Below are positions 1 to 20,940 of a stretch of DNA of 21,337 nucleotides, in pieces. Each line of letters opens with the position of its first letter. Position 1 is the first letter of the stretch. The position numbers and the translations under genes were made by a program. The notes beneath the pieces were generated by a model. The model did not search any database, was not told where the DNA came from, and saw only the letters and a list, made by a program, of their open reading frames with translations. Location: positions 1-21,337 of IMG/VR virus record IMGVR_UViG_3300013109_000151; one strand, 5' to 3'. The stretch is from a virus.

Positions 1-11
1 AAAGATGTAGT

Positions 12-110
12 ATTACACACAACGCTTGTGCAAACACTGTATTAAATGCAATAGAAAATTAAATAAACTACAAACTTGGCTAATATGGTGTTTTGCACTT
101 TGTTAGCCAC
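12..110. repeat. Long imperfect dyad, attC-like
   Basis: No gene is visible in bases 1-125. They hold an imperfect hairpin: GTGCAAACAC at 28-37 faces GTGTTTTGCAC at 88-98, complementary except for one extra base. Inside it TATTA (40-44) pairs with TAATA (81-85). The right end is TGTTAGCCAC (101-110), and a weaker partner, around TTACACA, sits near 13-19. The geometry (two imperfect arms, one unpaired base, a GTTAG-type end 15 bases before the next start codon) resembles integron attC sites or the dyad repeats between genes of some flavobacteria. The end GTTAGCC departs from the GTTRRRY core at one position. The resemblance is inferred, and the left arm is cut close to the window edge. Confidence 0.4.
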
Positions 111-125
111 TATTAAAATTACATT

Positions 126-338
126 ATGAATTGGATAGAATCAGAAACAAAACCAGAAACAAACAAAGTAGTATTATGCTACTCTAATGATTATAACGGG
201 GAAACTCCTTTTTTAGCTTTTTGGAACGGGGTATCATGGATAGATAAAGATTATGACCACTATGATGATGATGGTTTTTCAATAATTAGAGAAGATGTAA
301 CTCATTGGATTGAGTATGAAATACCTAATTGTGGCTAA
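126..338 (+). CDS. DUF551-like small protein
   Basis: This 70-residue protein is the only convincing plus-strand gene in the window. It starts MNWIE and ends VTHWIEYEIP, with further tryptophans at 33 and 38 in an 'AFWNGVSW' segment. A leading tryptophan motif, a valine-rich strand, an aromatic 'F..G..W' turn and a closing 'THW..(L/I)P' are the pattern of DUF551 proteins, short proteins of unknown function common in phages and mobile DNA. The gene faces the phage operon tail to tail. Its stop codon lies inside a GTGGCTAACA motif that is the reverse complement of one just upstream of its start, so it looks like a self-contained cassette. The family call is from memory of the motif; no function can be stated. 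Confidence 0.6.
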   Translation: MNWIESETKPETNKVVLCYSNDYNGETPFLAFWNGVSWIDKDYDHYDDDGFSIIREDVTHWIEYEIPNCG

Positions 339-340
339 CA
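331..340. repeat. Inverted copy of the 101-110 motif
   Basis: GTGGCTAACA here is the exact reverse complement of TGTTAGCCAC at 101-110, and the match extends to 14 of 15 bases with the neighbouring TAAT(A/T). The pair brackets the DUF551-like gene, and this copy contains its stop codon. The bases just after it (ATATCGCT, then AAACAC) echo the start of the dyad at 17-37, as if a second copy of the same element begins here and is then interrupted. Confidence 0.55.
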
Positions 341-359
341 TATCGCTAAACACACTTCC

Positions 360-450
360 AAAAGTGAACCACCTTTTAATATGTTTAAAAGGTGGTTTTT
401 TGTTGTGAAATAGTTTTTACCTTGTTTTTTGTAGGTTACAAAAGTGAACC
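360..450. repeat. Direct repeat AAAAGTGAACC (two copies)
   Basis: The 11-base string AAAAGTGAACC occurs at 360-370 and again at 440-450, where its last base lies in the stop codon of the holin gene. The copies are 80 bases apart in the gap between the last phage gene and the plus-strand gene, the place where an attachment site could lie if this is a prophage end. The sequence alone does not show which role they have, if any. Confidence 0.35.
367..401 (+). terminator. Intrinsic terminator after DUF551-like gene
   Basis: AACCACCTTTTAA (367-379) pairs perfectly with TTAAAAGGTGGTT (385-397) across a 5-base loop and is followed by a T run on the plus strand. It would end the plus-strand gene. Read on the minus strand the stem is followed by CACTTTTGG, a poorer U tract, so it could only weakly end the phage operon as well. 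A second small palindrome, CACTT-CCAA-AAGTG (353-366), abuts it. Confidence 0.7.
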
Positions 451-824
451 TATTTTTTAGCCTTTCTTAAACCTCTCATTTTAGCTTTTTCAAAACTTCT
501 ACCTCCAATGTAAACAGATATTACACCACTCCAAGTAAAAAGAAAATACTCCATCAATGCTGTAGAATGTTTTATTAATGTTTCTGAATTACTAAGATTA
601 GAAAGAACCCATAACCTAACACCAAACACCTCACTAATAACCACAAATAAACCTGTGTAAATTATCATAGGTCTAGCGTTCCTAACAAAAGAAGAACCAG
701 AAGCCATCTCATTAGTTACTAAATCGTGAGCTATTTCTGCTTTTTTATCTTTATTAACAACAGCTTTATCTATTATGTTTAAGCCTTTGTCAGCTATTTT
801 TTCAGCTCCTTTTTTACTAAACAT
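450..824 (-). CDS. Holin, 3-TM type
   Basis: This 124-residue membrane protein is the last gene of the operon. The N-terminal 40 residues are charged and amphipathic. Then comes 'FVRNARP' (46-52), a hydrophobic stretch at 53-75, another at 92-107, and 'YIGGRSFEKAK' with a basic tail. The R-N-A-R-P turn before the first membrane segment and the G-G-R-x-x-E-K end are typical of the 3-TM holin superfamily, which opens the inner membrane so that the endolysin can reach peptidoglycan. ATG at 824 is chosen over a GTG one codon upstream because it overlaps the preceding stop as TGATG. Position after the lysin supports a lysis role; the pore function is inferred. Confidence 0.65.
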   Translation of the reverse strand: MFSKKGAEKIADKGLNIIDKAVVNKDKKAEIAHDLVTNEMASGSSFVRNARPMIIYTGLFVVISEVFGVRLWVLSNLSNSETLIKHSTALMEYFLFTWSGVISVYIGGRSFEKAKMRGLRKAKK

Positions 825-991
825 CACTTATCTTTTATCTTTTCTTCAATAATAGCAATCTTCACATCTTGCTCGTGAGTTTTCTTTTTTAGGTAGTCTA
901 TTTTACCTAATAAGTCTTTAACAGTATAAACAATTAAAGCCATTAGTAAACCACCACCAGTTAGAAAAGCTATTATAGGGTGTTCTTCCAT
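824..991 (-). CDS. Small membrane protein, lysis module
   Basis: A 55-residue protein is encoded between the endolysin and the holin. It has a short acidic start (MEEHP), one hydrophobic segment at about 6-24 rich in glycine and leucine (AFLTGGGLLMALIV), then a charged, probably helical tail of about 30 residues (KDLLGK to IKDK). It overlaps both neighbours by single bases: TAATG with the lysin stop and TGATG with the holin start, which strongly supports it as a real gene. One membrane anchor plus a cytoplasmic coiled coil resembles holin accessory or XhlA-like proteins. A spanin-like role is possible but no lipobox is seen. The exact role is unknown. Confidence 0.6.
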   Translation of the reverse strand: MEEHPIIAFLTGGGLLMALIVYTVKDLLGKIDYLKKKTHEQDVKIAIIEEKIKDK

Positions 992-1449
992 TAATATAAC
1001 TCGTAAATAGTTCTACCGTTTTTTTTGATAGCTCTCATTACTTTTAATCTGTTCTTACCTTCACTAAAAGAAACATGAACCCAATCAGGGTTATTATCGT
1101 CTCCAAATTCCCAAATTAATTGATCGAATATTAAATTGTTTTTTATCCAATAGAATATTTGAGAGTTATCAATTTTACCGTAATAATCAGCGTCTAAATC
1201 TAAAGCTTCACCTTTCATGTGTTGACTTGTTTTAGATCCGCCTATAGCTTTGTTTAGTTCTTTTGATCTGTAACCACTAGAAACATAGATAGCTGTTTTA
1301 AAATAATCTCTTAAAGGTTGAAATATTTCGTTAGCTGTTACTTGTAAGTTGTTTAAATGTTCTTCTGTAGGTTCATTTGATAAACCCAATCTTTTAGCGG
1401 TTTGACTCACTAAAACCTCACTTAAATTTAAGTTTTTACTCAGTTTCAT
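991..1449 (-). CDS. Endolysin, M15-family zinc peptidase
   Basis: This 152-residue protein carries the M15 (VanY / L-alanyl-D-glutamate or D-Ala-D-Ala peptidase) signature. 'YVSSGYRSKELN' (55-66) is followed by 'SQHMKGEALDLD' (75-86), giving the zinc ligands H77 and D84. 'WVHVSF' (123-128) supplies the third ligand H125, and E114 in 'LIWEFGD' is a candidate general base. It has no signal peptide or cell-wall binding domain, so it is a compact single-domain lysin that needs a holin to leave the cytoplasm. Its length fits the phage M15_3-type lysins. It sits among three small membrane proteins and overlaps the upstream gene by 14 bases. Its role is cutting host peptidoglycan peptides at the end of infection. 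Confidence 0.88.
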   Translation of the reverse strand: MKLSKNLNLSEVLVSQTAKRLGLSNEPTEEHLNNLQVTANEIFQPLRDYFKTAIYVSSGYRSKELNKAIGGSKTSQHMKGEALDLDADYYGKIDNSQIFYWIKNNLIFDQLIWEFGDDNNPDWVHVSFSEGKNRLKVMRAIKKNGRTIYELY

Positions 1450-3527: not shown

Positions 3528-4009
3528 AATGTTAACAAGCTTTTGCCTTTAAAATCTGTTCCACAACAATCGTCACAATCATAACAAGGGTAATCTGTTG
3601 GATTGTCTTTTAAAAGTGTTATAATACGCTTAGAATAAGCTTCTGCGTTCTGTTCGTTGTACTGTTTAGTGTATTTCTTTTCTGTTTCTGTTAGTTGTGT
3701 TATGTTATCACCTGCAAACTTTACTAACCCATCATTAGAGCTATGAATCATTGAGTTTGATACGTATTTAGAATAAGAATAATAAACTAAATAAGGTTTG
3801 ACTAACTCCATTAATGTTTTATCAGCATCAGTAAAAGTATTAGAACATTTACGATCTTCTAACCCTGTTACACAATCATCACCAATCAATTCTCTTAACT
3901 GCCAGTTTTGAGCTGAAATAATATGTTGATTGTATTTCTGTTCGGTTACATTATCAGATAAATCTAATAAATCTCTAACATCTTGTATATTTATTAAAGG
4001 TGTATCCAT
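3524..4009 (-). CDS. Head-tail connector (gp6-like)
   Basis: This 161-residue, mainly helical protein resembles the gp6-type connectors of Bacteroidota siphophages, which form a ring under the portal. The pattern is an N-terminal helix with 'INIQDVRDLLDLSDNV', a helix pair with 'NWQLRELIGDDC' (35-46), 'LVKPYLVYYSYSKYVSN' (69-85), a short loop with 'GLVKFAG', and a long charged helix ending 'AYSKRIITLLKDNPTDYP'. The C-terminus carries a tight cysteine group, C142, C145, C148 and C149, that could bind a metal or form disulfides. In most siphophages this gene follows the capsid gene; here it lies after the tail tube. It overlaps both neighbours (TAATG, ATGA). Confidence 0.55.
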   Translation of the reverse strand: MDTPLINIQDVRDLLDLSDNVTEQKYNQHIISAQNWQLRELIGDDCVTGLEDRKCSNTFTDADKTLMELVKPYLVYYSYSKYVSNSMIHSSNDGLVKFAGDNITQLTETEKKYTKQYNEQNAEAYSKRIITLLKDNPTDYPCYDCDDCCGTDFKGKSLLTL

Positions 4010-4557
4010 TAGTTAGACATTAATTCTTTACGTTGATAATACCAATCTTCAAAAAGTCCTATTTCTATTTCTTTAGGTTGTTTAGTTTCATCTAATTCAA
4101 TAACACTTACACCTAAATCATAATCAAAAGTAGTAACCTTATAACCACCTTTTGAGATTAATTCTAAAACAAACTCTCTAGTATCTCCGCACCAAGTTTG
4201 AAAAGGTTTAAAATCTCTAGTTTCGTGAATAGGTAGCTTAGGCATTGAATGAGTAATAATTATTTTACCCTCTTCATTAATGTTTTTAAGAGCTTGTTTA
4301 AAATAACTAGCCAAATCTTTGTAATGCTTAGAATCATTAATTACAATTAAATCAAACTTCTTTTTAGTGTTGTTTTTTTGTATGTCTCCACGTTTAACAG
4401 GATAAACCCATGATCTAGGAAACAACTTAGTATCATACTTATCTATTCCGTGTTTTTCTCCTTTAATTCTATCATAGAACATTGAAGGATTACCAACACC
4501 AAAGAATAGTATTTTTTCAACACCTAAAGAGTTTATATAATTAATTGTATTCAGCAT
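4009..4557 (-). CDS. Methyltransferase-like protein (class I SAM fold)
   Basis: The 182-residue protein follows the layout of Methyltransf_24-type class I SAM enzymes. 'KILFFGVGNPSMF' (15-27) stands where the SAM-binding loop is expected. 'HGIDKYD' (36-42) is the second strand. 'FDLIVINDSKHYKDLASYFKQAL' (68-90) matches 'D-x-x-x-I-D-G-x-H-x-Y', with the D-G changed to N-D. 'GKIIITHSMP' (97-106) matches 'G-x-I-x-x-H-D-x-x-P' with the acidic residue replaced by serine, and 'TWCGDTREFV' (121-130) matches a family 'W-C-G-D' motif. The missing glycines of motif I and the changed acidic residue raise the chance that it no longer methylates. Its place among tail genes is unusual; a role in modifying virion or host components is a guess. 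Confidence 0.5.
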   Translation of the reverse strand: MLNTINYINSLGVEKILFFGVGNPSMFYDRIKGEKHGIDKYDTKLFPRSWVYPVKRGDIQKNNTKKKFDLIVINDSKHYKDLASYFKQALKNINEEGKIIITHSMPKLPIHETRDFKPFQTWCGDTREFVLELISKGGYKVTTFDYDLGVSVIELDETKQPKEIEIGLFEDWYYQRKELMSN

Positions 4558-9826: not shown

Positions 9827-12375
9827 TGTTGTTGAATTATTGTATCTGGTAGATTAATTTCAAAACTAATATCTCTTGTTTTATCTCCTTCGTCATTAAT
9901 AACAAATTTACCTTGGTTAATTGTTACCGTTTGCCATTTACCGCTATCCATTAACAACTGAACTTTAACCGATCTTCTGATTTGTTGTAAAACCTCTTGT
10001 TCATTCTTAGTTAACAATTGTGAACGAACTAAAATAGATCTATTAGAGTTTGTTTTAATATTGTCGTTTTGGGTGTCACTATTAATAAAAGTATTATCCC
10101 AATTGCTTGTTATATCTCTTTTAATATTGATCTTTTGAGTTACATTTTCAGAATAAACAGCTTTACCATCAAAGTACCAAGATTCAAAACCTCCTAAATC
10201 ATTCAACCATCTTAAAGTAACCCCATAAGGAGAACACGAGCATTTATTATTAACCTTTTTAGATTCGCTGATAAATTCAATTGGACCTTTAAAAGTTATA
10301 TCATCCATGCGTAAAATGTAACCAGTGCCACTATCAATATCAAAATTTAACTCTTCATAGAATGTAAACTGTAGTGAATCTGTTGTTTTAGCTTCAAAAG
10401 TTAAAGAAACAGGATACCAATCTTCAAACGTTGGATCTGTTGTAGAATATAAATTTTCTGGATTTAAAAAGAATGGTGAAATAGTACATTCTTCATAAGT
10501 GTAACCGTTTGGAAGGAAATAGAAATAACCGTTGTAAATATGTCTAGGGTCTGGATCTGTATCTTTCATGCAAACATAAGCTAACAACTCATAAGTTCGA
10601 CCTTCAACAACATTTATAGAGCTGTCATTTTCAAAGATAGTATAAACCTTATTAGGCTGATCCATTGATGACTTTCCGCAACTTATAGTCCCCCCCGTTG
10701 ATCCTGTTCTGGAAGTGTTTTGATAAGTAAAACTGGAGCATATCTCATTAGGCGTGGAGTTAAAAATAGTTATACCATCAACATCGAACCCTATTGTACC
10801 CCCCTCAAAAGTACCGTTATTTGCATCTATAAAAGTATTTCCGGGTATAATTATAAACTGAATATTAGCATAAGACCAATCACACTCACTAATATTATTA
10901 GAGTCTAATTCACTTTTTATGTTAGGATCTACAGTATAAACACCATCACTCAAATAATCTATCTTATAATTGTATGATAGAACGTTATTATCTTGTGAAT
11001 CAAACAACTCTAGACTAACAAAAACATTGTCTGAATCTTCTGACAAAGAGAATGTACTATTAGGTATTATTGAATTAAGGTAAAAAGGTTTATCATAAAA
11101 ATAACTTAACTCGTTAAAGTGAGTTAATATCTTTGGTGTTAAAGTATCTTCAATGTTTAAAACATAATCGCCAAAATTACCGCCTAAATTATCTTGAAAC
11201 TGTTTGCATCCATAAACAGCATAATTAAAGGCTAAACAAAGGTTTTCAGACGTTCCATTATAAATAGAAGTAAAACTATTTAGCTGAATGTTTACTGTTT
11301 CGCTTAAACCAACAGTACCAAAAGCAACTCCTACCCCTGTTACATCGTTGTTAGGTGTTACGTTTATTAGGTAAATACCACTAGAAGAAATAGAGGTTGA
11401 ACCTAAAAGATTTCCGTTAGTATCATAAATACCAAAACCACAATTATTAAAAGAACCTGATAAACTTACATCAATACTAAATTGATATGTGTTGTTATTT
11501 ACTAAAGATATGTTTTGATATAATATCTCGGAATAAAACGGTCTAACATTACCAGATTGAGTAATAGAGGTTGTCACATTACCAACACCCGCAACCCATA
11601 CTTGATCAAAAGAAGATGGTATAGATTGCGTTAACCAATCATCTAAACCATTTGAAAAGCCATCATCTTCATAACCCTCAAAAGGAACACAGTTATCATA
11701 TTCATCATCTTCAAAATCAGAAGTATAATTAACTATTTTGCTACCCTCAACCCTATCATAACTTTCCGCTAATTGTAAATGAAAAGAAGTCCATCCTAAA
11801 TGCCTGTTTTCATCTGTGTAATCAAAATCAGCGTTTACATCTGGTTTAATAAATGATTTAACATCTACATAACCAATATTATTAACTCCATCATCAGTAA
11901 AATCTATTTCAATAGTTCCAACCTCTATAAGTGGCTTTGAATCATCTGTGTTATATGGGTGACCTTCTCTAGCCCCTACAAAAACTTTAGCTAAACCTAA
12001 ATAGTTCCTATAAAACTTTATAGCTGTTCCTGTTGTTGAAGTAACACCTGTAGAAATAGCAACATCTAAAACAATATCTAAACCGTCTATTGATTTTATT
12101 TGAAAATTACCACCATCTAAATCTTCTATACCAGTTCCATCTATAGTAGCAAAATCTAAAACTTGAAACTCATCATTAACAGACAAACTAACTACAGTAC
12201 CTTGTAACCCTGAGTTATAAGTTACATTTGTTATTGTAAATGTGGTGTCAATTTTATTTATAGGGAAAAGATCACTATCTAATTCATATCTAAGCGGTAA
12301 TTCTGAACTGTTCCACTTGCTTAAGAATCCGTTTGATAGTGTTTTTTCTGGGCGTGTTACGACTGAAATAGGCAT
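9823..12375 (-). CDS. Large tail protein with CBM-like domains
   Basis: This is the largest gene of the window (850 residues). The conserved-looking ends are an N-terminal domain of about 220 residues ('RPEKTLSNGFLSKWNSSELP', later 'RHLGWTSFHLQLAESYD') and a C-terminal domain of about 130 residues ('GVTLRWLNDLGGFESWYFDG', 'IRRSVKVQLLMDSGKWQTV'). Both occur in Bacteroidota phage tail proteins. Between them are at least two beta-sandwich regions like carbohydrate-binding modules: about 235-385 (FEGYEDDGFSNGLDDW and 'NNNTYQFSIDVSLSG') and about 525-715 ('VVEGRTYELLAYVCMKD' and 'RMDDITFKGP'). These suggest sugar binding at the tail tip, so the protein may be both a baseplate part and a host-range determinant. 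It starts after a short gap from the gp10-like gene. Confidence 0.55.
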   Translation of the reverse strand: MPISVVTRPEKTLSNGFLSKWNSSELPLRYELDSDLFPINKIDTTFTITNVTYNSGLQGTVVSLSVNDEFQVLDFATIDGTGIEDLDGGNFQIKSIDGLDIVLDVAISTGVTSTTGTAIKFYRNYLGLAKVFVGAREGHPYNTDDSKPLIEVGTIEIDFTDDGVNNIGYVDVKSFIKPDVNADFDYTDENRHLGWTSFHLQLAESYDRVEGSKIVNYTSDFEDDEYDNCVPFEGYEDDGFSNGLDDWLTQSIPSSFDQVWVAGVGNVTTSITQSGNVRPFYSEILYQNISLVNNNTYQFSIDVSLSGSFNNCGFGIYDTNGNLLGSTSISSSGIYLINVTPNNDVTGVGVAFGTVGLSETVNIQLNSFTSIYNGTSENLCLAFNYAVYGCKQFQDNLGGNFGDYVLNIEDTLTPKILTHFNELSYFYDKPFYLNSIIPNSTFSLSEDSDNVFVSLELFDSQDNNVLSYNYKIDYLSDGVYTVDPNIKSELDSNNISECDWSYANIQFIIIPGNTFIDANNGTFEGGTIGFDVDGITIFNSTPNEICSSFTYQNTSRTGSTGGTISCGKSSMDQPNKVYTIFENDSSINVVEGRTYELLAYVCMKDTDPDPRHIYNGYFYFLPNGYTYEECTISPFFLNPENLYSTTDPTFEDWYPVSLTFEAKTTDSLQFTFYEELNFDIDSGTGYILRMDDITFKGPIEFISESKKVNNKCSCSPYGVTLRWLNDLGGFESWYFDGKAVYSENVTQKINIKRDITSNWDNTFINSDTQNDNIKTNSNRSILVRSQLLTKNEQEVLQQIRRSVKVQLLMDSGKWQTVTINQGKFVINDEGDKTRDISFEINLPDTIIQQQ

Positions 12376-12388
12376 AACACAAATATAA

Positions 12389-12829
12389 TCATTTATTATC
12401 TTTGAAAGTTTTGAAGCTAGTTCTTATGTTATTCAGTATGCTTTCTCCTACTGCTTCTTTGGTATTCTTTATTATCTCGTCACTAGGAATAGATAAAAGT
12501 CCCTTTGTGCCTTCGTAACCGTTTTTATTAATGTTTGTGTAAACAGCCCAAGGATTAAGGTTTAAACCCCTATCTAGTACCCATTGTTCTATCTGTTCAA
12601 AAAATCCATTACCTCCACTCCCTCCTTCTGGTGTTGGTTTCCTTCCATCTTCTAAAGCTGTAATGTGTTCGTCACCTGTAAATATTAAAGTATTAGTGTC
12701 TTTTACGGTGTACTTAATAGATTGAGCAGTTTGACCGCTTACTACCCTGTTATTATCTTGTAGTGATTTTCGGTATAATTGGACTCCCTGCTCTCCCTGT
12801 TTGGTTAATATGTCTTCTAATCGTTGCAA
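12389..12829 (-). CDS. gp10-like tail completion / neck protein
   Basis: The 146-residue protein resembles HK97 gp10-type tail-completion proteins. It has an N-terminal helix 'LEDILTKQGEQGVQLYRKSL', then 'SGQTAQSIKYTV' (strand after the S-G-x-T/L-x-x-S turn), 'DEHITALEDGRKPTPEGGSGG' (split as DEHITALEDGRKP and TPEGGSGG), 'FFEQIEQWVLDRGL' and a final helix. The 'A-L-E-D-G-(R/T)-x-P' strand-turn is the best marker. There is no ATG in frame: the only usable start is TTG at 12829, four codons after an in-frame stop and within the end of the preceding gene. Low-level, coupled translation is therefore likely. It would join the tail to the head-neck with its neighbour. Confidence 0.55.
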   Translation of the reverse strand: MQRLEDILTKQGEQGVQLYRKSLQDNNRVVSGQTAQSIKYTVKDTNTLIFTGDEHITALEDGRKPTPEGGSGGNGFFEQIEQWVLDRGLNLNPWAVYTNINKNGYEGTKGLLSIPSDEIIKNTKEAVGESILNNIRTSFKTFKDNK

Positions 12830-13299
12830 TCTATTATTTCAGTTTGTGTATTACAGAATATATCACAATAAGTGTTTTGATCTCCAATACTTAAATTAAT
12901 AGTTAACCCTTTGCCTAAACCAATATAAGAACCATCTCTAAAAAATTCAGACATAGTAAAACCGTTAACAGTTACATCAACATTTCTTTTAACGAACCAT
13001 AAAAAATCTTTAGCTAATTTATCAGCTTGTATTTCTGCTTTTTGTTTCTGTTCTGCTGATGGGTCTCTTTCTACATTAGCAACAAACACAAAAGAAGCAT
13101 CATAAGTAATTAAGTTTCTTTGAGCATCGTTTAAATCTCCTGTTTCAGATAGACTAACTAAACCAACAAAAGGCGGTTTATTCTTTGAAGCCCACTTTTG
13201 TAGCCTTGTAGGTGTTTCTTTTACATAATCAATATGTAATTGTTTAGCTGAAACTTCAAACAGCTTTAAAATATACTCTAATGATGTTAAATTACTCAT
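12817..13299 (-). CDS. Tail terminator-like protein
   Basis: This 160-residue alpha/beta protein starts on the stop codon of the frameshifted chaperone reading frame (TAATG). Features are an N-terminal helix (YILKLFEVSAKQLHIDYV), 'KPPFVGLVSLSETGDLND', the strand 'ITYDASFVFVANVERDPSAE', a long helix 'AEIQADKLAKDFLWFVKRN', and the strands 'MSEFFRDGSYIGLGKGLTINL' (given in part: FFRDGSYIGLG). A beta sheet packed against a long helix with this length fits tail terminator proteins (lambda gpU-like), which cap the tube and join it to the connector. The gp10-like neighbour supports a neck role. The family match is by pattern, so alternatives such as another neck protein remain. Confidence 0.5.
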   Translation of the reverse strand: MSNLTSLEYILKLFEVSAKQLHIDYVKETPTRLQKWASKNKPPFVGLVSLSETGDLNDAQRNLITYDASFVFVANVERDPSAEQKQKAEIQADKLAKDFLWFVKRNVDVTVNGFTMSEFFRDGSYIGLGKGLTINLSIGDQNTYCDIFCNTQTEIIDCND

Positions 13300-13571
13300 T
13301 ATCTCTTAGTTTTTAGGCTTCTGTAGATGTCTTCACACCTATTAAGCTCACTCTTATATTCCTCCCACGCATAAACAAACCCGATACTAAATTCCATAAC
13401 CTTGAGGGAATTGATAATATTTCCTTCGGATAACGAATGTATGTTGCTAAAACTACCCCACTTGTTAGAAAGATCGTCATAACGTGCTTGATAATACGCG
13501 TCATCAGGCTTTTTATTAACCATGTTTTCTGCGTGTTCTCGCTCAATTCGTTCAATTTGCTCAAAAAAAAA
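13299..13571 (-). CDS. Tail chaperone, -1 frame extension
   Basis: This reading frame has no ATG near its start; it is reached by slipping back one base in the nine-T run that ends the shared part of the upstream frame. It adds about 88 residues: 'FEQIERIEREHAENMVNKK', 'YYQARYDDLSNKWGSF', 'GNIINSLKVMEFSIGFVYAW' and a charged tail. The product would be a fusion of about 266 residues, the analogue of lambda gpGT. The part with 'N-K-W-G' and 'V-M-E-F-x-x-x-F-V' resembles ends of other Bacteroidota phage chaperone-type proteins. Its stop codon overlaps the next start as TAATG, the same coupling used elsewhere in this operon, which supports this frame as genuinely translated. A simple indel or homopolymer sequencing error is the main alternative. 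Confidence 0.6.
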   Translation of the reverse strand, partial: FFFEQIERIEREHAENMVNKKPDDAYYQARYDDLSNKWGSFSNIHSLSEGNIINSLKVMEFSIGFVYAWEEYKSELNRCEDIYRSLKTKR

Positions 13572-14098
13572 CAACCTAAAGTATAAGCTTCATCTGTTGG
13601 CATAGTTTCTAACACTTCGTTAAAGACTTCTTCATAGTCTTCTGTATCGTAAACAAGATCTAAACCACAAACAGCGATACAAGTAGCCATAACTTCTAGT
13701 TTATCCTTTGTTTTAGACTCATCAGACAACGAACTAACAGCGTTTAATATATTATAGTACCTACCAGCTTTAATCTCTCTGAACTCCTTATTTATCCTGT
13801 AATACTTACCAGTTGACAACCTTTTTATATCGGTAGGTAATTTACATTTAGGTTCTTCGCTAATAAAGTTTAATTGACCGTTTAAACGTTGAAATAACTC
13901 TGGTTTATGAGGTTTTAACCACCATTCAAGATCTAAACCAGTAAAAAGAGAATAAATACGCTCGTTTTTATTTGGCTTATCATCTTCTAATATCTGATTA
14001 TATTCAATGAAAGTTTTAAACGGGTAATCATTCCATGAATCACCAACAGAAAAAGACTCCTGTTTATTTCCAAACCATATTTTTAAAGGATTAAGCAT
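13313..14098 (-). CDS. Tail assembly chaperone (unshifted product)
   Basis: The zero-frame product has 261 residues. Residues 1-178 look like a tail assembly chaperone: 'FKTFIEYNQILEDDKP' and 'RIYSLFTGLDLEWW' match the 'E-Y-x-x-I...LfTG' pattern, followed by 'LNFISEEPKC', 'KAGRYYNILNAVSSLSD' and 'ETMPTDEAYTLGCFF'. Such proteins wrap the tape measure while the tube assembles. After the T9 run at residues 176-179 the frame continues for about 80 residues with an odd hydrophobic stretch (MTIFLTSGVVLATYIRY) that looks less like normal coding sequence, although 'FFLSKLNELSENTQK' right after the slip is plausible protein. The pair with the -1 frame is the usual short/long chaperone arrangement. It lies far upstream of the tape measure gene rather than next to it. 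Confidence 0.6.
   Translation of the reverse strand: MLNPLKIWFGNKQESFSVGDSWNDYPFKTFIEYNQILEDDKPNKNERIYSLFTGLDLEWWLKPHKPELFQRLNGQLNFISEEPKCKLPTDIKRLSTGKYYRINKEFREIKAGRYYNILNAVSSLSDESKTKDKLEVMATCIAVCGLDLVYDTEDYEEVFNEVLETMPTDEAYTLGCFFLSKLNELSENTQKTWLIKSLMTRIIKHVMTIFLTSGVVLATYIRYPKEILSIPSRLWNLVSGLFMRGRNIRVSLIGVKTSTEA
13563..13571 (-). promoter_or_regulatory. Slippery site (T9), -1 frameshift
   Basis: On the coding strand the sequence is GGT TGT TTT TTT TTG AGC, so the run of nine T residues contains perfect X-XXY-YYZ heptamers (T-TTT-TTT and T-TTT-TTG). A -1 shift moves the ribosome from the 261-residue frame to the frame that ends at 13299. The T run could also cause slippage by RNA polymerase. 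I did not identify a clear Shine-Dalgarno or pseudoknot stimulator. Confidence 0.6.
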
Positions 14099-14290
14099 TT
14101 ACTTAGTTTCAATACTCTCTTTTAATTCTGCTTTGTTTTTAGGTTTCCTCCCTCTTTTAGGTTTTTCAGTTTCTTGAACTAATTCAGCAACACCTTTATC
14201 AATTAACCTTTCAGCATTTTGTTTAGTGGTTAACATTTCACCGCTATAGGTCAAATACTTATTTATAAACTTAATTTTAACTTTTTCCAT
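14099..14290 (-). CDS. Small basic protein with AT-hook-like motif
   Basis: The 63-residue protein begins 'MEKVKIKFINKYLTYSGEML' and has 'TTKQNAERLIDKGVAELV', a pattern seen in short proteins encoded near phage capsid or neck genes (a small strand pair, then 'A-x-x-L-I-x-K-G-x-A'). It ends with the basic 'KPKRGRKPKNKAEL', an AT-hook-like R-G-R-K-P core that could touch AT-rich DNA. The gene ends immediately before the chaperone ATG and overlaps the preceding secreted-protein gene by 14 bases. Its role is unknown; a DNA- or head-associated function is only a possibility. Confidence 0.55.
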   Translation of the reverse strand: MEKVKIKFINKYLTYSGEMLTTKQNAERLIDKGVAELVQETEKPKRGRKPKNKAELKESIETK

Positions 14291-14609
14291 ACTGCAATTT
14301 AACTATAAAATTGTTAATATGTTCTAAGTTGTCAAGCCTAGCTTCTGAAACGTGTCTAACTAAATAATAATTACTAAGCTGTTTAATCCTTTTAGATTGA
14401 ATTATTAAAGTAGTACCGCAATCTGTTTTTTCTATGTATATTTTGTTTCTTTTATATTTTCCAACCTTATAAAATATATTGTTAAAAGGTGAATCTTGAT
14501 AAAAGTTAAAATAGTTTCTAGCTTCTTCTAGTTTCTTAACATATCTTTTTTGACTGTAAGCAAACGACAAGCTAATTAATAACGCGAATGTTAAAATAGT
14601 TTTTTTCAT
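14277..14609 (-). CDS. Secreted small protein, moron candidate
   Basis: A 110-residue protein with a clear Sec signal peptide: 'MKKTILTFALLISLSFAYSQ', with cleavage expected before the glutamine (A-Y-S/Q), the Bacteroidota style. The mature part is basic and helical at first (KRYVKKLEEARNYFNFY), then beta-rich (NKIYIEKTDCGTTLIIQ), with one cysteine. It has no recognised domain. A secreted protein has no place in virion assembly, so it is probably cargo acting in the periplasm or at the surface of the infected or lysogenic cell, for example in superinfection exclusion; that is inference. Its first 21 coding bases match those of the next secreted gene at 20 positions. Confidence 0.65.
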   Translation of the reverse strand: MKKTILTFALLISLSFAYSQKRYVKKLEEARNYFNFYQDSPFNNIFYKVGKYKRNKIYIEKTDCGTTLIIQSKRIKQLSNYYLVRHVSEARLDNLEHINNFIVKLQYGKS

Positions 14610-14637
14610 GTGTTAACATATCCAACTATTAAGCCAA

Positions 14638-14982
14638 TTAGTAAAAAATGAAACTACCTCTATCTGATACTATCATGATGTTATTCGCTTTTTCTGAAAT
14701 ATAGATAATATCACCGCTTTTTGTCTTATAAATAAGATATTCAAAACCGTTTAATTCTTTAACCTGATAAAAAGTTAAAGACATCGTTGTATAAGTTTCT
14801 GTACTTTCTCCTTTGCCACCATACATAATATATTTATCTGAAAAGTAAAACGAAAATTTTAACATTTCTTTTTTTGTTGTTGATGTTACTGTTCTTAGTG
14901 AATCTGTGTTAATAAACTTGATTTGTGAAAATGATACTAATGAAACTATTAAAAGTGCTAGTGTTAAAATTGTTTTTTTCAT
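14638..14982 (-). CDS. Secreted small protein, moron candidate
   Basis: This 114-residue protein has the signal peptide 'MKKTILTLALLIVSLVSFSQ', cut before glutamine (S-F-S/Q). The mature part has 'KFINTDSLRTVTSTTKKEML', then alternating strands ('FSFYFSDKYIMYGG', 'TYTTMSLTFYQV', 'YLIYKTKSGDIIYIS'), consistent with a small beta domain. The mature sequence does not resemble that of the neighbour at 14277-14609, though the signal peptides are nearly alike at DNA level, as if copied or exchanged as a unit. No family is recognised. Like its neighbour it is more likely an accessory gene than a virion gene. Confidence 0.65.
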   Translation of the reverse strand: MKKTILTLALLIVSLVSFSQIKFINTDSLRTVTSTTKKEMLKFSFYFSDKYIMYGGKGESTETYTTMSLTFYQVKELNGFEYLIYKTKSGDIIYISEKANNIMIVSDRGSFIFY

Positions 14983-14984
14983 GG

Positions 14985-15308
14985 TTATTTATTTAAAATT
15001 CTTTGTATTAAGTTTCTGTTTTTTAGTTTTTTAATGTCTTCTTTTAGTATTTCTACATAATGAGAAGAAGCTTTTAATTTGTTTTCAATTACTTCTAGCT
15101 GTTTGCTTTCTATTCTGTCCAATGCTTCTTGGCAGAAATAAATCTGTTTATCTAAAAAAGAACCTCCTCTACACGTTTTAACTATCTCATAGTGTTCAAT
15201 CATTGAATTATCTTTTGAGTGAATAAAAGCAGTGTAAAACATCTCACATTTATCATAATATTCTTTTTCTTCTCTCGTTATTTCTACTTTTAGATCTTTT
15301 TTATTCAT
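14985..15308 (-). CDS. Unknown protein with C-terminal coiled coil
   Basis: The 107-residue protein is charged throughout. Two cysteine-bearing segments ('YYDKCEMFYTAF' and 'VKTCRGGSF', plus 'IYFCQEAL') lie in the first 65 residues. The second half ('EVIENKLKASSHYVEILKED', 'IKKLKNRNLIQRILNK') is likely a coiled coil. No signal peptide or membrane segment is seen. It starts as TAATG on the stop of the 85-residue gene. Function unknown; part of the small-gene cluster between spike and tail genes. Confidence 0.5.
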   Translation of the reverse strand: MNKKDLKVEITREEKEYYDKCEMFYTAFIHSKDNSMIEHYEIVKTCRGGSFLDKQIYFCQEALDRIESKQLEVIENKLKASSHYVEILKEDIKKLKNRNLIQRILNK

Positions 15309-15565
15309 TATCCAAATGTTTTATTTAATGGTTCTAAAATGTCTTTTTCTATTATCTCTCCAAAAGTTTCTTCTACAACTTCCAATTCTTTAGGTAAAGC
15401 GTTTTCTGTGTAAACATTACCATCATTCATCATAGCTGATATTTTATGGTAAGTAGTTAAGCCTGATTTTGTGCTTTTTGTTTCGATAATATCATATCTT
15501 AACTCTTGTTGCTCTGGTGTTAAACAAGAATATAAAGCAGATGTTTTTTTTACTGTGTATTTCAT
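15308..15565 (-). CDS. Unknown small protein
   Basis: The product has 85 residues. It begins with a short basic part and 'TPEQQELRYDIIETK', has a beta-like middle ('GLTTYHKISAMMNDGNVYTE') and an acidic end ('ELEVVEETFGEIIEKDI'). It overlaps the upstream gene by ATGA and the downstream gene by TAATG, so it is translationally coupled in the small-gene cluster. No domain, signal peptide or membrane segment is recognised. Confidence 0.5.
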   Translation of the reverse strand: MKYTVKKTSALYSCLTPEQQELRYDIIETKSTKSGLTTYHKISAMMNDGNVYTENALPKELEVVEETFGEIIEKDILEPLNKTFG

Positions 15566-15849
15566 GATCTAATTTTTTCTAATCTGTTTGATGTGGAATC
15601 ATTTATAAAACCTTTATCTAAAGGTCTGTTTTTAATATGTTTTTTACTTAATACAGAAGAAAAAGTTACCTGTTTTTTCTCTAGGTACTTATAAATAAAC
15701 CCGTTATAATATTCTTCTATTAACTTACATTCATAACTAAATTCATCATCAATAAATGTTTCTTTTATTACTTCTGCATAACAGTAAAGACCTTTTTTGT
15801 CTTCAATTTCTTTTGTTAAGCTGTTTAAATAAACTTTTACAATTTTCAT
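15562..15849 (-). CDS. Unknown small protein
   Basis: A 95-residue protein with an alternating strand pattern at the start ('MKIVKVYLNSLTKEI', 'GLYCYAEVIKETFIDD', 'YECKLIEEYYNGFIYKYL') and a basic, less ordered C-terminus. The start codon shares its surroundings with the 54-residue gene upstream: the 15-base string TTTTCATATCTCGTT (plus strand) lies over both starts, giving the leader AACGAGAT-ATG-AAAA. No family is recognised. Confidence 0.5.
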   Translation of the reverse strand: MKIVKVYLNSLTKEIEDKKGLYCYAEVIKETFIDDEFSYECKLIEEYYNGFIYKYLEKKQVTFSSVLSKKHIKNRPLDKGFINDSTSNRLEKIRS

Positions 15850-15868
15850 ATCTCGTTCTTTTATATTA

Positions 15869-16033
15869 TTAAGCTACTTTTCTAATTGTGTTACCTTCAA
15901 CAACAAACTCACCTCCTGTTGTTCTAGCCATAAATACAGCCATAGCTTCTGTTAAATTTGCCATTTTAGGATCAACAAACCATAACCCTTTTTGACCTTG
16001 TTCTGTTGTGTGTTTTTTGATTAAGTTTTTCAT
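15869..16033 (-). CDS. Short unknown protein (54 aa)
   Basis: A 54-residue ORF opens with 'MKNLIKKHTTEQGQKGLWFV', continues 'DPKMANLTEAMAVFMARTTG' and ends 'EFVVEGNTIRKVA'. The start is 19 bases after a possible promoter, and the leader AACGAGAT-ATG is repeated at the next gene, which supports expression. The gap to the next gene is 19 bases. The sequence looks like a small globular protein without signal peptide or membrane segment. Function unknown. It is the first gene after the spike terminator and so probably the first of the accessory cluster. Confidence 0.5.
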   Translation of the reverse strand: MKNLIKKHTTEQGQKGLWFVDPKMANLTEAMAVFMARTTGGEFVVEGNTIRKVA

Positions 16034-16052
16034 ATCTCGTTGTTTTGTGATA

Positions 16053-16083
16053 CAATACTAATACCATAATTTTATAAAAACAA
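16053..16083 (-). promoter_or_regulatory. Possible promoter of the small-gene cluster
   Basis: On the minus strand TTG (16083 to 16081) is followed after 20 bases by TAGTATTG (16060 to 16053), one mismatch from TAnnTTTG. It lies between the strong terminator of the spike gene and the 54-residue gene, where a new start of transcription is needed. The match is imperfect, so confidence is low to moderate. Confidence 0.35.
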
Positions 16084-16102
16084 GATACGACCTAAAAAAA
16101 AT

Positions 16103-16137
16103 AAAAAAAAGAGCCGAATAATATAATTAAACGGCTC
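16103..16137 (-). terminator. Strong intrinsic terminator after spike gene
   Basis: On the minus strand GAGCCG (16137 to 16132) pairs with CGGCTC (16116 to 16111), with an AT-rich loop that can pair further, and is followed by eight U residues (16110 to 16103). It lies about 20 bases after the stop codon of the spike gene and should end most head-module transcription here. Confidence 0.85.
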
Positions 16138-16158
16138 AAACCAACTAAAACAAATTAA

Positions 16159-17652
16159 TTACCTCTCTTGTATTCTAAAGAAACTACCTGTCTCTAAAGT
16201 TACATTATTGTTACCACTGTTGTTTCTTACTTGTAGTTTTAAGAAGTCGTTTCTATCTAAAGTACCTCCATAAACAACATTAAAGAAAGCAACATCTCTA
16301 CCTCCTACTAAAGAGTTTATAGGTCTTGTTGTAATAGTATAATCTAAAGGAGTAAAAGAGCTTGTCGCATCATCATATTTCATAAATCTAATACTTAATT
16401 CGTTGTTGCTTGTTCCCTCAATAGTTAAACTAGCTGTAAATTCAAACTCTCTAGGAGAAATACCATCATGAGTAAGTTCACCATCTGCATTCCCTGTAAA
16501 GTGTTCTGCCCCTGTAGTTAAGAAGATACCCTCTAAATCGTACCAAGTAGAACCAGCACCTATAACAGTTAATTCTTCACTAGTAACGCTAGAACTAGCA
16601 CCGACATAAGTGTTATTTAAACCTACATTATCTTTCCAATAACTACATAAATCAGATTCTGAAACATTAGGCGTTATGTTTGTGTCCTCTGGATTCAAAG
16701 TACTGCCCCTTGTTAATATCATTTCCTCAAGCTGTAAAGTAGAAGGATTAGGGAAATTAGAAGGTGTAAAATCTAGTAAAGGTTGTAAATCTCCTAAATC
16801 TACGTTTGCATCTGTAGCAAATCTACTTTGCATAGTGAACCCTACACCAGCCTTAAACAGTGGTTCTGTTGTGGTGTCGCTCATGTTTCTAACAATGGAA
16901 GTAACAACCCTGTAACCACCTAACCAAGTCCCTGAAAGAGTTAAGCTAGGTGACCCGCCAAAGCGACCCGTTCCATTTTCTAATCCTTGTCTGTATCCGT
17001 TAATTTCACCTAAAGAAGTACAGTCGTTAAAATTAATCCTAGCAAACTCAAAAGCATTAAACCCGTTAACATCTGTTAAGTCATAAACTTGACTATTTGC
17101 CCCTGTTACCTCAATTTTATAATCTTTGCCTATTACGTTACCGCTACCACCAACATCAGAAACAAACATAGTATAGTTATCCTCACTACTTACAAGCCCC
17201 GATAAATCAAAGTTATAACCTGTTAAATTTATACCTGTTGATGGTACTGTTATTTGAGTAGTCCCTGTATCAATAATACCGTCAATAAAGTATTCTTTAG
17301 TTGAGTCTATAGTACCACCTAATGTACTAGCAAAGTTTGTTTGATTAACTATAACCCTTTCAGCTAGTCCGCCAGTAGAACCATTCTCATCTAAAAAAAA
17401 AATCGCTTGTAAAGCGTCTCTTAATTCAGTTGCTGTTGTGCTACCTGCTCCAACGCCTAATATATTGTCTGTATCTAAATAAACTGTTGCATTAGTAAAC
17501 TTTGCTGAATTACTCCGAATCTCTAAAGCGTTATTCTCTGTTATATCTGGTATTATTAACTCAACATCATTCTTACCTGCTGTGTATTGAATATCATTAA
17601 AATTAATATTAAAACTTTTACCGTTATCTATAAATTCAAATGTTATAGCCAT
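16159..17652 (-). CDS. Spike or head-fibre protein (beta-helix and jelly roll)
   Basis: A 497-residue protein encoded right after the capsid gene. The N-terminal 90 residues ('MAITFEFIDNGKSFNINFND', 'ATVYLDTDNILGVGAGSTTA') look like an attachment domain. The stretch of about 95-300 ('EYFIDGIIDTGTTQITVPST', 'GINLTGYNFDLSGLVS', 'LTLSGTWLGGYRV') has short strands and turns like a pectin-lyase-type beta helix. The last 100 residues ('EFEFTASLTIEGTSNNELSI' to 'LKLQVRNNSGNNNVTLETGS') fit a trimeric jelly-roll tip. It is flanked by terminators on both sides. Position in the head module suggests a head fibre or decoration that may bind host surface or particles; a tail fibre encoded out of place is the alternative. 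No catalytic residues are claimed. Confidence 0.55.
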   Translation of the reverse strand: MAITFEFIDNGKSFNINFNDIQYTAGKNDVELIIPDITENNALEIRSNSAKFTNATVYLDTDNILGVGAGSTTATELRDALQAIFFLDENGSTGGLAERVIVNQTNFASTLGGTIDSTKEYFIDGIIDTGTTQITVPSTGINLTGYNFDLSGLVSSEDNYTMFVSDVGGSGNVIGKDYKIEVTGANSQVYDLTDVNGFNAFEFARINFNDCTSLGEINGYRQGLENGTGRFGGSPSLTLSGTWLGGYRVVTSIVRNMSDTTTEPLFKAGVGFTMQSRFATDANVDLGDLQPLLDFTPSNFPNPSTLQLEEMILTRGSTLNPEDTNITPNVSESDLCSYWKDNVGLNNTYVGASSSVTSEELTVIGAGSTWYDLEGIFLTTGAEHFTGNADGELTHDGISPREFEFTASLTIEGTSNNELSIRFMKYDDATSSFTPLDYTITTRPINSLVGGRDVAFFNVVYGGTLDRNDFLKLQVRNNSGNNNVTLETGSFFRIQER

Positions 17653-17680
17653 TTATTATTTATTTTAGTTGATTTATCAT

Positions 17681-17724
17681 AAAAAAAAGCAGTTCAAACA
17701 GCATATAAACACCGTTCAAACTGC
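17681..17724 (-). terminator. Second terminator after capsid gene
   Basis: On the minus strand GCAGTTTGAAC (17724 to 17714) pairs with GTTTGAACTGC (17699 to 17689), eleven pairs including two G-U, around a 14-base loop, and eight U residues (17688 to 17681) follow. The two arms are also near direct repeats of one another. It lies 28 bases before the start codon of the spike gene, so that gene must be reached by read-through or from a promoter not recognised here. Confidence 0.75.
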
Positions 17725-17737
17725 CTTAATAAATATT

Positions 17738-17758
17738 AAAAAGAGGTTTTTACACCTC
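17738..17758 (-). terminator. First, weaker terminator after capsid gene
   Basis: On the minus strand GAGGT (17758 to 17754) pairs with ACCTC (17747 to 17743) over a 6-base loop, followed by five U residues (17742 to 17738). It sits only six bases after the capsid stop codon. Short stem and short U run suggest partial termination, or protection of the capsid mRNA end. Confidence 0.5.
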
Positions 17759-17764
17759 CTTTAA

Positions 17765-18979
17765 TTATGGTTTTGTGATTGCTCCGATAGCAGTAGCAAC
17801 ATCTGAACACTTCATAAACGCATTAGCGTTGTTATTCTCAACTAAGAATTGAAGTTTAGCTGTAACCATCATTGTAACATACTCATCAACAAAGTTAGTT
17901 CCGTTAGAATCTGACATTGTTAAATTGATAGAAGTTCTATCTAAGATGTTTCCTTTAGTAGTATCCATTACATAAAGATTATTAGCAGCAACATCAACCA
18001 AAGGAATAACAAGAATATCACCAACAAAAGTATTACCTCCTACTTTTGAAATTCTAGGATCTAGGTAATTTCCGTTTGCGTCTTTTGCAGATTCTACTTG
18101 TACGAACCAATCCATTTTGTTAACTAATGCAACATTAGATTTGAAGCTACCTAATTTACCTAATACATCAATTTGAGTAGCCATACCCAAAATCAAATCA
18201 GCCATGTTAGCGTCTGGTATATTAGCTCCAATAGGTGCATCTACGTTAGCTGGATCAAATTCAGAAGATACATTATCAATAGAGTTTGTTGATGTAGTAG
18301 AATTAGTTCCTAACAACAAATCAGTATCAATTTTAAAAGCAATAGAATCATTTAAAATAGTTCTATATCTGTTTTCTACATATCCATAATCAAGAGCGTA
18401 ATCCTTACAGATATCTACAGTATCTTTGATCTTTACATAGTTAACTTTTTGCTCTCCAATTTCCTCTTTAGTTAAAGAAGTAAATGATTTAGCACAACCA
18501 GCTACACCTTGAGCATCTCTTACGATACTAGTTTGCTCTAAGTAAGTGTAAGTTTCCGTAATCATTGGAATACGAGAAAACAAAGAAGCTACTTTAGGCT
18601 GTTTCTTTACAATATCAGAAATGCCAGGAGCTAACTGATCTAATACACCTGTTTGAGTTAAATCATTATAAGTAGCATCAGCTTTTAATTCAAGTTCAAC
18701 CTTACCACCATTTGTAACAAATGATTTGATTTCTGTTGATTTCTTTTCAAATTCTTCTGCAAATGCTGATTTTTGTTCAACCTTAGAAGATTTAACTTCT
18801 TTAAGTTTCTCTAATTCAGTACCATTTTTAACTAACTCATCTTTAACAGACTTCAATTCTGTTTGAGCTGTTTCTAATGCTTCTTTAGTAGCTTTTAATT
18901 CTACTTCATTTGATTCAATCTTTGCTGACTTCTCGTTAATTCCTTCGATAGCAGCGTTTAGTTTTTCTAAACCTTCCAT
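17765..18979 (-). CDS. Major capsid protein, HK97 fold
   Basis: The 404-residue product is the HK97-type shell protein. Residues 1-65 are a strong coiled coil ('NEVELKATKEALETAQTELK'), the delta domain that acts as internal scaffold and is normally cut off by the protease. Cleavage probably falls between about 65 and 105. The mature part contains 'LTQTGVLDQLAPGISDIVKK', 'SLFSRIPMITETYTYLEQ', 'QKVNYVKIKDTVDICKDYAL' (the E-loop to spine region), 'ALVNKMDWFVQVESAKDANG', 'VGDILVIPLVDVAANNLYVM' and a final 'VDEYVTMMVTAKLQFLVENN', the usual A- and P-domain order. It lies between the protease and two terminators. A dedicated promoter was not seen, so it is probably expressed from the portal-side promoter. 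Confidence 0.92.
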   Translation of the reverse strand: MEGLEKLNAAIEGINEKSAKIESNEVELKATKEALETAQTELKSVKDELVKNGTELEKLKEVKSSKVEQKSAFAEEFEKKSTEIKSFVTNGGKVELELKADATYNDLTQTGVLDQLAPGISDIVKKQPKVASLFSRIPMITETYTYLEQTSIVRDAQGVAGCAKSFTSLTKEEIGEQKVNYVKIKDTVDICKDYALDYGYVENRYRTILNDSIAFKIDTDLLLGTNSTTSTNSIDNVSSEFDPANVDAPIGANIPDANMADLILGMATQIDVLGKLGSFKSNVALVNKMDWFVQVESAKDANGNYLDPRISKVGGNTFVGDILVIPLVDVAANNLYVMDTTKGNILDRTSINLTMSDSNGTNFVDEYVTMMVTAKLQFLVENNNANAFMKCSDVATAIGAITKP

Positions 18980-18984
18980 TTTAC

Positions 18985-19620
18985 TTATTTAATTTTTGAA
19001 ATTATTTTATTCAACTCTATTAATTCATTTTCAGCTTTTTCTTCAACGGCTTGAGTGTCTTGTGACGGCTCAAGTGCTTTTAGTCTAGCTTCCAAATCTT
19101 CAATTCTTTTTATTAATTCTTCTGGTGTCATATTAACTGATTTAAGGTCTAATAGAGGTGTTTCAGAATTAGCTCCTAAAAAGTCTAATGTTGAATATTC
19201 CATTAGATTAACCTCTTTTAAAATATTTGCTTTTTGTTCTTGTGACTTCTCTTCTTTAACTGTAACATAACCGATACTATGCTCTAGTGTTTGATTGTTT
19301 TCAGCATAGAATTTATAATCTGAAAATGTTTCTTGACCTAATTGTTTTTCTAGGTTGATCTTTGAAACAACATCTAACCCTTTTTCTGTTACTGTCATCT
19401 CTATAGGAACCCCTATAGCCTGATTCCAACTATGATTTTTAAGGTGTTTAACCCTTGTCTTTCCACTAGCTTTAAAATCAGAAATAGATTTATTAAATGC
19501 TTTAGAATCCATTATGTCACCATAAGAATCAATGTTACCAAACGCACTAACACGAATCTTTACTATTCCTTTTTCATCTACATCTTCAATAGATGATTTA
19601 GTATTAAACAGTTTCATCAT
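18985..19620 (-). CDS. HK97-type prohead protease
   Basis: This 211-residue serine protease (family U35/S78) matures the procapsid by cutting the capsid delta domain. 'VSAFGNIDSYGDIMDSKAFN' (24-43) is the typical opening 'F-x-x-x-D-x-x-x-D-x-x-x-x-G-A/A-F' segment. H63 in 'KHLKNHSWNQAIG' and S115 in 'LEHSIGY' (112-118) are the expected catalytic pair. 'LKEVNLMEYSTLDFLGANSE' (134-153) is the family's closing segment and supplies acidic candidates. Residues 163-205 form a coiled coil ('EELIKRIEDLEARLKALE'), perhaps interacting with the capsid scaffold. Two ATG codons stand in a row at the start. The gene overlaps the portal gene by 17 bases. Confidence 0.88.
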   Translation of the reverse strand: MMKLFNTKSSIEDVDEKGIVKIRVSAFGNIDSYGDIMDSKAFNKSISDFKASGKTRVKHLKNHSWNQAIGVPIEMTVTEKGLDVVSKINLEKQLGQETFSDYKFYAENNQTLEHSIGYVTVKEEKSQEQKANILKEVNLMEYSTLDFLGANSETPLLDLKSVNMTPEELIKRIEDLEARLKALEPSQDTQAVEEKAENELIELNKIISKIK

Positions 19621-20872: not shown

Positions 20873-20892
20873 TATAATATTTTGCTATTCGG

Positions 20893-20919
20893 TAAAAATA
20901 CAAAATATTATTTTATTAT
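20893..20919 (-). promoter_or_regulatory. Promoter/operator-like element before portal gene
   Basis: This block repeats the element found before the tail tube gene: 20894-20919 matches 5361-5386 at 24 of 26 bases and shares 17 bases without a change (20898-20914). On the minus strand it offers TATTTTTA, one mismatch from TAnnTTTG, at the same place as TATATTTG in the other copy, preceded by the palindromic AAAATA-A-TATTTT. It lies about 20 bases before the portal start codon. A shared regulator or promoter for the head and tail-shaft genes is inferred. Confidence 0.45.
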
Positions 20920-20940
20920 TTGGTAGTATGAAAAAATATG

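Follow-up and report, generated by a model that had tools for sequence, protein, structure and literature searches.

The phage represented by IMG/VR record IMGVR_UViG_3300013109_000151 (21,337 bases, G+C 31%; this whole stretch is called the window below) probably carries integron-type gene cassettes in which the attC-like site is reversed relative to the gene and which are moved by a recombinase acting in trans. Comparison with other phage sequences supports this reading through a family of dyads with compensatory changes, the pairing of each unit's own two ends, the presence of several units per phage, the recurrence of one unit in another phage among different neighbours, and the company that the dyad keeps with the gene downstream of it.

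The phage and its left end

ORF translations and family profiles identify a tailed phage with portal, capsid, terminase, and lysis genes, all on the minus strand. When 50,697 phage records were searched with the capsid protein, all 39 matching records were Flavobacterium phages (best E 6e-6, identity below 60%), and the host is therefore likely to be a Bacteroidota bacterium. The lysis genes include an endolysin recognized by its family profile (peptidase M15_3, 991-1449, minus strand) and, at the end of the late operon, a holin-like gene (GTA_holin_3TM, 450-827, minus strand), whose homologue in the related record G002 is likewise followed directly by an array. Bases 1-345 are the sole part of the window to the left of the lysis genes and contain the tail of a preceding cassette, one dyad, an ORF of 70 amino acids, and the inverted boxes. 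A perfect 13-bp inverted repeat followed by a run of T (367-397, plus strand), likely a terminator, lies between this array and the oppositely transcribed lysis genes.

Elsewhere in the window, two adjacent minus-strand genes (14277-14609 and 14638-14982) have near-identical signal peptides, MKKTILTFALLI and MKKTILTLALLI, and are probably duplicated secreted proteins inside the structural region. A small minus-strand gene in the tail region (4009-4557) resembles SAM-dependent methyltransferases by eye.

The cassette unit

The original prediction described TGTTAGCCAC (101-110) and GTGGCTAACA (331-340) as exact reverse complements that bracket a small plus-strand gene, with the stop codon inside the second copy and a long dyad with one unpaired arm base ahead of the gene. 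All of this is correct: the TAA of the ORF at 126-338 occupies 336-338, within the second copy, and the dyad at 21-104 is real. It runs on the plus strand from AAC (21) to GTT (104); these core triplets enclose unpaired spacers, a stem of some 17 bp interrupted by a single unpaired base on the right side, and a variable loop of about 35 nt. The covariance model R1, described below, matches the window at this place only (50.4 bits, E 2.6e-10). The start box GTTAGCCAC (102-110, plus strand) and the end box GTGGCTAAC (331-339, plus strand) are exact 9-nt partners, which gives the unit the complementary ends within one cassette that attC cassettes have. Between them, the gene begins with an ATG 21 nt past the GTT and ends with its TAA in the end box. 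On the evidence of the polarity tests given below, the mobile unit would extend over 23-338 of the plus strand, from the C of the left AA|C through the dyad, the start box, and the gene to the AA of the end box, the exact cut being a proposal.

The bases to the left of the dyad appear to belong to another cassette. Positions 11-23 (plus strand) read TATTACACACAAC, an end box whose partner start box, GTTGTGTGTA, occurs in locus L112 and in the same phage (L098, 7236). We had considered TATTACACACAAC as a fixed platform and dropped that idea, since it is an end box. In L112 and L103 a cassette gene stops just ahead of an end box identical to window 11-23, and by analogy positions 1-10 (plus strand) would be the last bases of the preceding cassette's gene, with a TAG stop at 8-10, cut by the end of the record.

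The assignment of the gene to DUF551 holds only weakly. The Pfam match (E 0.024) reaches 15.9 bits against a cut-off of 22, and phrog_924 is matched at E 9e-4. No relatives of the 70-aa protein were found in the viral contigs or phages searched. Window 1-360 had no match among plasmids, and Rfam gave nothing approaching a gathering score on window 1-500. TAnnTTTG, a -7 promoter motif of Bacteroidota, is absent at window 1-140.

A 10-nt inverted repeat alone means little, because 354 of 2000 dinucleotide shuffles of bases 1-460 contain such a pair 100-400 nt apart; the 10-mer was absent from all 80 loci collected as endolysin-matched neighbourhoods. A dyad scoring as high as the window's arose in 24 of 4000 shuffles, and such a dyad together with an exact 9-nt GTT/AAC box pair in none of 4000. 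Folding as single-stranded DNA, suggested as a check and run on 1-125, was unremarkable for both strands (z -0.33 and 0.07). The stem is evident from comparison and not from a single folding energy.

The exact 16-mer GCACTTTGTTAGCCAC occurred in seven unrelated stretches of viral contigs, of which five are one region of related contigs and two are coding-like. The pattern GTGGCTAACAN{62,92}TGTTAGCCAC gave three stretches in genome contigs, all of them short proteobacterial elements with GTGGCTAACAAAA ends. These elements (L089 from Xanthomonas pisi, L090 from Methylobacillus arboreus, and L091 from Chromobacterium piscinae) are about 100 nt long with perfect GTGGCTAACAAAA...TTTTGTTAGCCAC ends, and, coming from three unrelated Proteobacteria, look like small transposable elements.

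A family of attC-like sites

The pattern AACGNTTGTNTAAAN{42,72}TTTANACNNTGTT was found in 11 stretches of viral contigs, one of them in G001, a second record of the window's phage; the remaining ten have the same anatomy. R1 was built from 24 aligned sites of 11 viral records (G002-G012), with the window and G001 excluded. The model ends at AAC and GTT, and the boxes beyond these triplets are therefore outside it. In the stem of the 24 sites 92.4% of cells are paired, ten of the 14 pairs of the L-stem have changed on both sides in a compensatory manner, and the covariation of the stem is 0.443, compared with 0.06-0.14 for slid partners. Site length ranges from 44 to 129 nt, and the hairpins have the form of attC, R-spacer-L-variable loop-L-spacer-R with AAC/GTT cores. 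R1 sites are present in all 13 records, 11 of which supplied training sites; in a further 43 viral loci, taken from the 80 matched by the endolysin and totalling 489 kb, the model found none at E<=0.1. Of 54 R1 sites, the 47 that begin with AAC and end with GTT were kept for the box-pairing and core-letter counts below, and the other seven were dropped.

That the core motif departs from GTTRRRY, as had been noted for the window, applies to the family as a whole. This consensus fits two of 30 start boxes and four of 27 end boxes, and the window's start box, GTTAGCC, fails it; GTTR fits all 30 start boxes. Alignment columns 22 and 114 of the stem hold a G facing a T in 22 of the 23 sites that have letters there; at most other positions the stem pairs are Watson-Crick. 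This conserved strand asymmetry might serve strand choice.

Pairing of the boxes

Of the 47 R1 dyads, 31 have an end box that is the exact 9-nt partner of their start box within 60-1500 nt on the downstream side, compared with 1.75 expected when letters 4-9 are shuffled. The mirrored test, for a partner start box upstream, found one for 20 of 43 dyads (1.0 expected; four sites near a record end were left out). The boxes that flank one and the same dyad match over at least 8 nt in only three of 47 cases. Pairing of a unit's own ends is the prediction of circular cassettes with a folded site, and with the R1 match in the window (E 2.6e-10) it supports the integron cassette geometry that had been proposed. 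The R1-site test replaced an earlier one that used a home-made dyad scanner (33 of 442 site pairs compared with 1.6 expected, both strands counted). Hairpin energies of own-ends pairs were lower than those of junction pairs in 20 of 21 comparisons; we do not count this as evidence, because the cassettes had been chosen for matching boxes and the result is partly true by construction.

Genes between inverted short boxes, in records where no IntI is found, could also be modules moved by XerC/XerD or by another tyrosine recombinase of simple sites and not by an integron-type enzyme. The modules associated with p-dif, a fixed 28-bp simple site (XerC-spacer-XerD), are likewise genes bracketed by inverted recombination boxes. 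The sites described here instead fold into hairpins that measure 44-129 nt and combine a covarying stem with a variable loop, and their boxes vary from cassette to cassette yet pair within each, which makes movement by a Xer-like enzyme quite improbable. A different proposal would be that the ERF annealing recombinase of the phage exchanges modules by making use of ordinary intergenic hairpins or boundary sequences. In AT-rich phage DNA hairpins are frequent, an ERF gene adjoins the G001 array, and an ERF-like gene, recognized by eye, adjoins that of G002. Such exchange explains neither the exact 9-nt inversion between a unit's own ends nor its rarity across the dyad, and we regard it as exceedingly improbable.

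Arrays in the same and related phages

G001 (IMGVR_UViG_3300013114_000230), obtained through the capsid search, is 99.6% identical to the window over 11768-21337 (9,570 nt) and extends 12 kb further. Its far part contains stretches like window 9-115 (68% and 70%) and like window 328-370 (84%), within an array of small plus-strand genes with dyads in between. The start boxes of its units read GTTACCCAC, GTTGTAGTG, GTTATCAAT, and GTTAGCAAC, and the inverse of each closes its own unit; two of the six units A-F (B and E) lack a start box. The array terminates in GCTAACATATCGCTAAAC, as the window's array does, and a short gene, an ERF recombinase, and an SSB-like protein lie 3' of it. The flank named in advance as contrary to the cassette reading, plain phage sequence with no further dyads, is thus not what G001 presents. 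It has six R1 sites, five of them complete at both ends (at 15737, 16903, 17576, 17884, and 18511) and one partial. The phage in this way has at least two attC-like sites within 4 kb of one replicon, as a CALIN does; the window alone has one site.

G002 was found through the holin (57% identity). Its array begins immediately past the holin gene, on the strand opposite to the late genes, and is followed by the ERF-like gene. Since the arrays of both G001 and G002 sit between phage genes, such an array has a place within the phage genome, and it is this place that the window shows. The original prediction had placed the phage beside, or inserted into, a host array, and the position of the window's array at the very end of the record would suit a prophage end next to a bacterial cassette array. 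This origin is very improbable and that part of the prediction is not supported. The array is the phage's own because a contig 99.6% identical over 9,570 nt has five more complete dyads among its own genes; the G002 array, too, lies between holin and ERF-like genes, and Phage_integrase (PF00589) is matched in none of the 13 records, possibly fragments, at E<=1.

One unit of 355 nt is common to G001 and G006, at 86.5% identity and with different neighbours in each. The match begins at the AAC of the dyad and stops just past the AAC of the end box, and the two dyads are no more alike than other dyads of the same type. The protein of cassette D (dyad at L098, 8872-8975) had no match in phages or plasmids, and a search of phages with the type-1 dyad gave none either.

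In G004 (L116, G004:14000-28500) five cassettes each end at a half-site (AACA.., with TATAT or TATGT shortly after it), beyond which comes another gene that has no start box, as if single units preceded many genes in place of one long array. Two other phage contigs (L107, 11016-11160, and L110, 563-705) have in common, at 93%, a small basic gene that by eye resembles ribbon-helix-helix proteins, and the sites after it differ.

Polarity of the sites

The dyad appears to belong to the gene downstream of it. We compared dyads with their neighbouring boxes on the 47 model sites without hand selection; an earlier version had dropped four weak sites and added others by hand. Among 989 site pairs drawn from different records, similar dyads tend to have similar start boxes downstream (rho 0.157, a value reached in 2 of 1000 permutations), and no such correlation holds for the upstream end boxes (rho -0.022; 720 of 1000). 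The 31 most similar dyad pairs have 4.4 of six letters in common downstream (background 2.4) and 2.0 upstream (background 2.2). A site at the 3' end of the cassette gene, where attC is placed, is therefore not what we find: the dyad goes with the downstream gene.

The letters beside the cores point the same way. Among the 47 R1 sites, AAC is followed by G in 44 and GTT is preceded by T in all 47. In seven class 1 attC sites read with their genes, representing about four distinct types, AAC is followed by A in six (otherwise by C) and GTT is preceded by C in all seven. The core-adjacent letters of the phage sites are the reverse complement of the class 1 pattern. When R1 was run unfiltered on 29 kb of class 1 integrons, the two places matched at E<=10 were both exactly the attC of aadA1, on the strand opposite to the gene; these matches are weak (9.8 bits, E 5.2). 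In the class 1 attC after cmlA (L120 and L122), the upstream letters are kept and the downstream box changes. Since the dyad travels with the downstream gene and class 1 attC are alike in reverse complement, attC seems to be inverted relative to the gene.

The same cassettes could instead have canonical polarity, as class 1 integrons do, with each dyad owned by the preceding gene and the start box cut at its G|TT. Published attC architecture has the site at the gene's 3' end, several cassettes have a stop codon that overlaps the end box, and in the pair L101/L103 the left arm of the downstream dyad is held in common and goes with the gene. We nevertheless consider canonical polarity unlikely, given that the dyads track the downstream and not the upstream box, that the core-adjacent letters are the reverse complement of the canonical ones, and that 16 of 31 cassettes end without any dyad recognized by model or scanner. 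The linkage of dyad and downstream gene is statistical, as the L101/L103 pair shows, and there are further exceptions in which the upstream dyad differs despite a common gene (gene A of G001 and G008, and the cassette common to L107 and L110). We dropped the unpaired stem base as a marker of polarity, the base being on the left in 12, on the right in 11, and equal in nine of 32 sites; by the definition in PMC2727003, attC has its extrahelical bases on the R''-L'' arm.

Array ends and proposed mechanism

The impression that the dyad's opening starts again after the gene was half right. The half-site AACATATCGCTAAAC is present (337-351, plus strand; its minus-strand reading is ...GATATG|TT), but no right arm follows before the hairpin at 367-397. 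This candidate attI-like simple site closes the array, and the identical 15-mer ends this phage's other array (L098, 9810); unchanged, it was found nowhere else among the loci compared. Of the 31 end boxes, 16 have no following dyad by model or scanner, and 12 of these read AACA and four AACG. In the 15 with a following dyad, the letter is G in 13 and A in two. AACA followed at a short distance by GTATAT or GCTAAAC corresponds to the dyad's right arm as read on the opposite strand, and the array ends therefore look like simple sites where a unit was inserted. They look attI-like in form only.

An attI next to intI, as in a complete integron, was not found, because no intI was detected and 337-351 resembles attI in form only. 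The integron integrase model TIGR02249 matched none of the 13 records at E<=10, in keeping with the original remark that no integrase is seen. The absence of an integron integrase from the record, which also characterizes a CALIN, thus extends to all 13, which are possibly fragments. From this we infer an enzyme acting in trans.

We propose that each unit opens with a folded attC-like site and a start box, continues with one or two small genes, and closes with an end box inverse to its own start box. Excision would yield a circle whose attC hairpin is completed by pairing between these boxes. An integron-type tyrosine recombinase, supplied in trans by the host or by another element, may do the cutting, at AA|C on the strand of the gene and at G|TT on its complement, and would then join a unit either to other units or to an attI-like half-site, for example that at 337-351. 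From the minus strand this would look like a normal attI-cassette array with its genes facing the wrong way; attC would therefore stand ahead of each gene, and a promoter on the attI side would not express it.

Comparison with known systems

Phage-borne attC clusters are already known; what sets the present ones apart is a relaxed R box (GTTR), a reversed polarity, and the presence of half-sites. In 10,705 phage genomes, Qi et al. (2023, PMC9892861) report 17 CALINs. The CALIN of the lytic Polaribacter phage P12002L holds an attC that IntI1 recombined in E. coli, and the divergent directions of its attC sites are ascribed to phage mosaicism (PMC9892861). Like the window phage, P12002L has attC-type sites between small genes and lacks an integrase. 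R1 at E<=0.05 finds six minus-strand sites in a region of minus-strand genes of P12002L, on the strand of the genes, and two more outside it (14503, plus; 12903, minus). Start and end boxes pair over 8-9 nt in four of the six minus-strand sites. The passages of PMC9892861 consulted describe no consistent reversal, whereas one is proposed here.

Class 1 cassettes (with the attC of aadA1, aadA2, and cmlA) share with the phage units the R-L-loop-L-R hairpin, the AAC/GTT cores, and the pairing of a unit's own ends in the circle. They differ in the orientation of the gene to attC and in the core-adjacent letters; in the phage units, moreover, GTTRRRY fits only two of 30 start boxes and no intI is found. 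Sedentary chromosomal integrons, as in Vibrio, are similar in being arrays of small genes mostly of unknown function, whereas the arrays described here are phage-borne, number more than one per phage, and have no integrase in view. The IntegronFinder 2.0 paper names one complete integron in Bacteroidetes proper, that of Salinibacter ruber (PMC9024848). Judged by titles, the opening lines of abstracts, and passages of PMC8618304, PMC9668308, PMC9024848, PMC2727003, and PMC11014356, the papers found outside subscription journals on Bacteroidota or Flavobacterium cassette arrays or on opposite orientation describe no attC placed systematically ahead of the gene.

Implications

More broadly, and only tentatively, phages of Bacteroidota (the host as suggested by the capsid matches) may share an exchange of cassettes of reversed polarity, in which attC precedes the gene, docking takes place at attI-like half-sites (AACA...GTATAT or GCTAAAC), of which some phages have several, and a recombinase that is probably a dedicated one of the host acts in place of an integrase of the phage's own. 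Integron finders that expect GTTRRRY, and attC behind the gene, would then report too few such arrays. If the polarity is true, phages without an integrase of their own would be seen to trade small accessory genes by site-specific recombination, and R1 would be a ready model for arrays that GTTRRRY-based searches may miss. The usual picture of a cassette, a promoterless gene followed by attC and read from a promoter at attI, would in that case fail for a whole group of phages, whose cassettes would need expression signals of their own, carried along or otherwise found.
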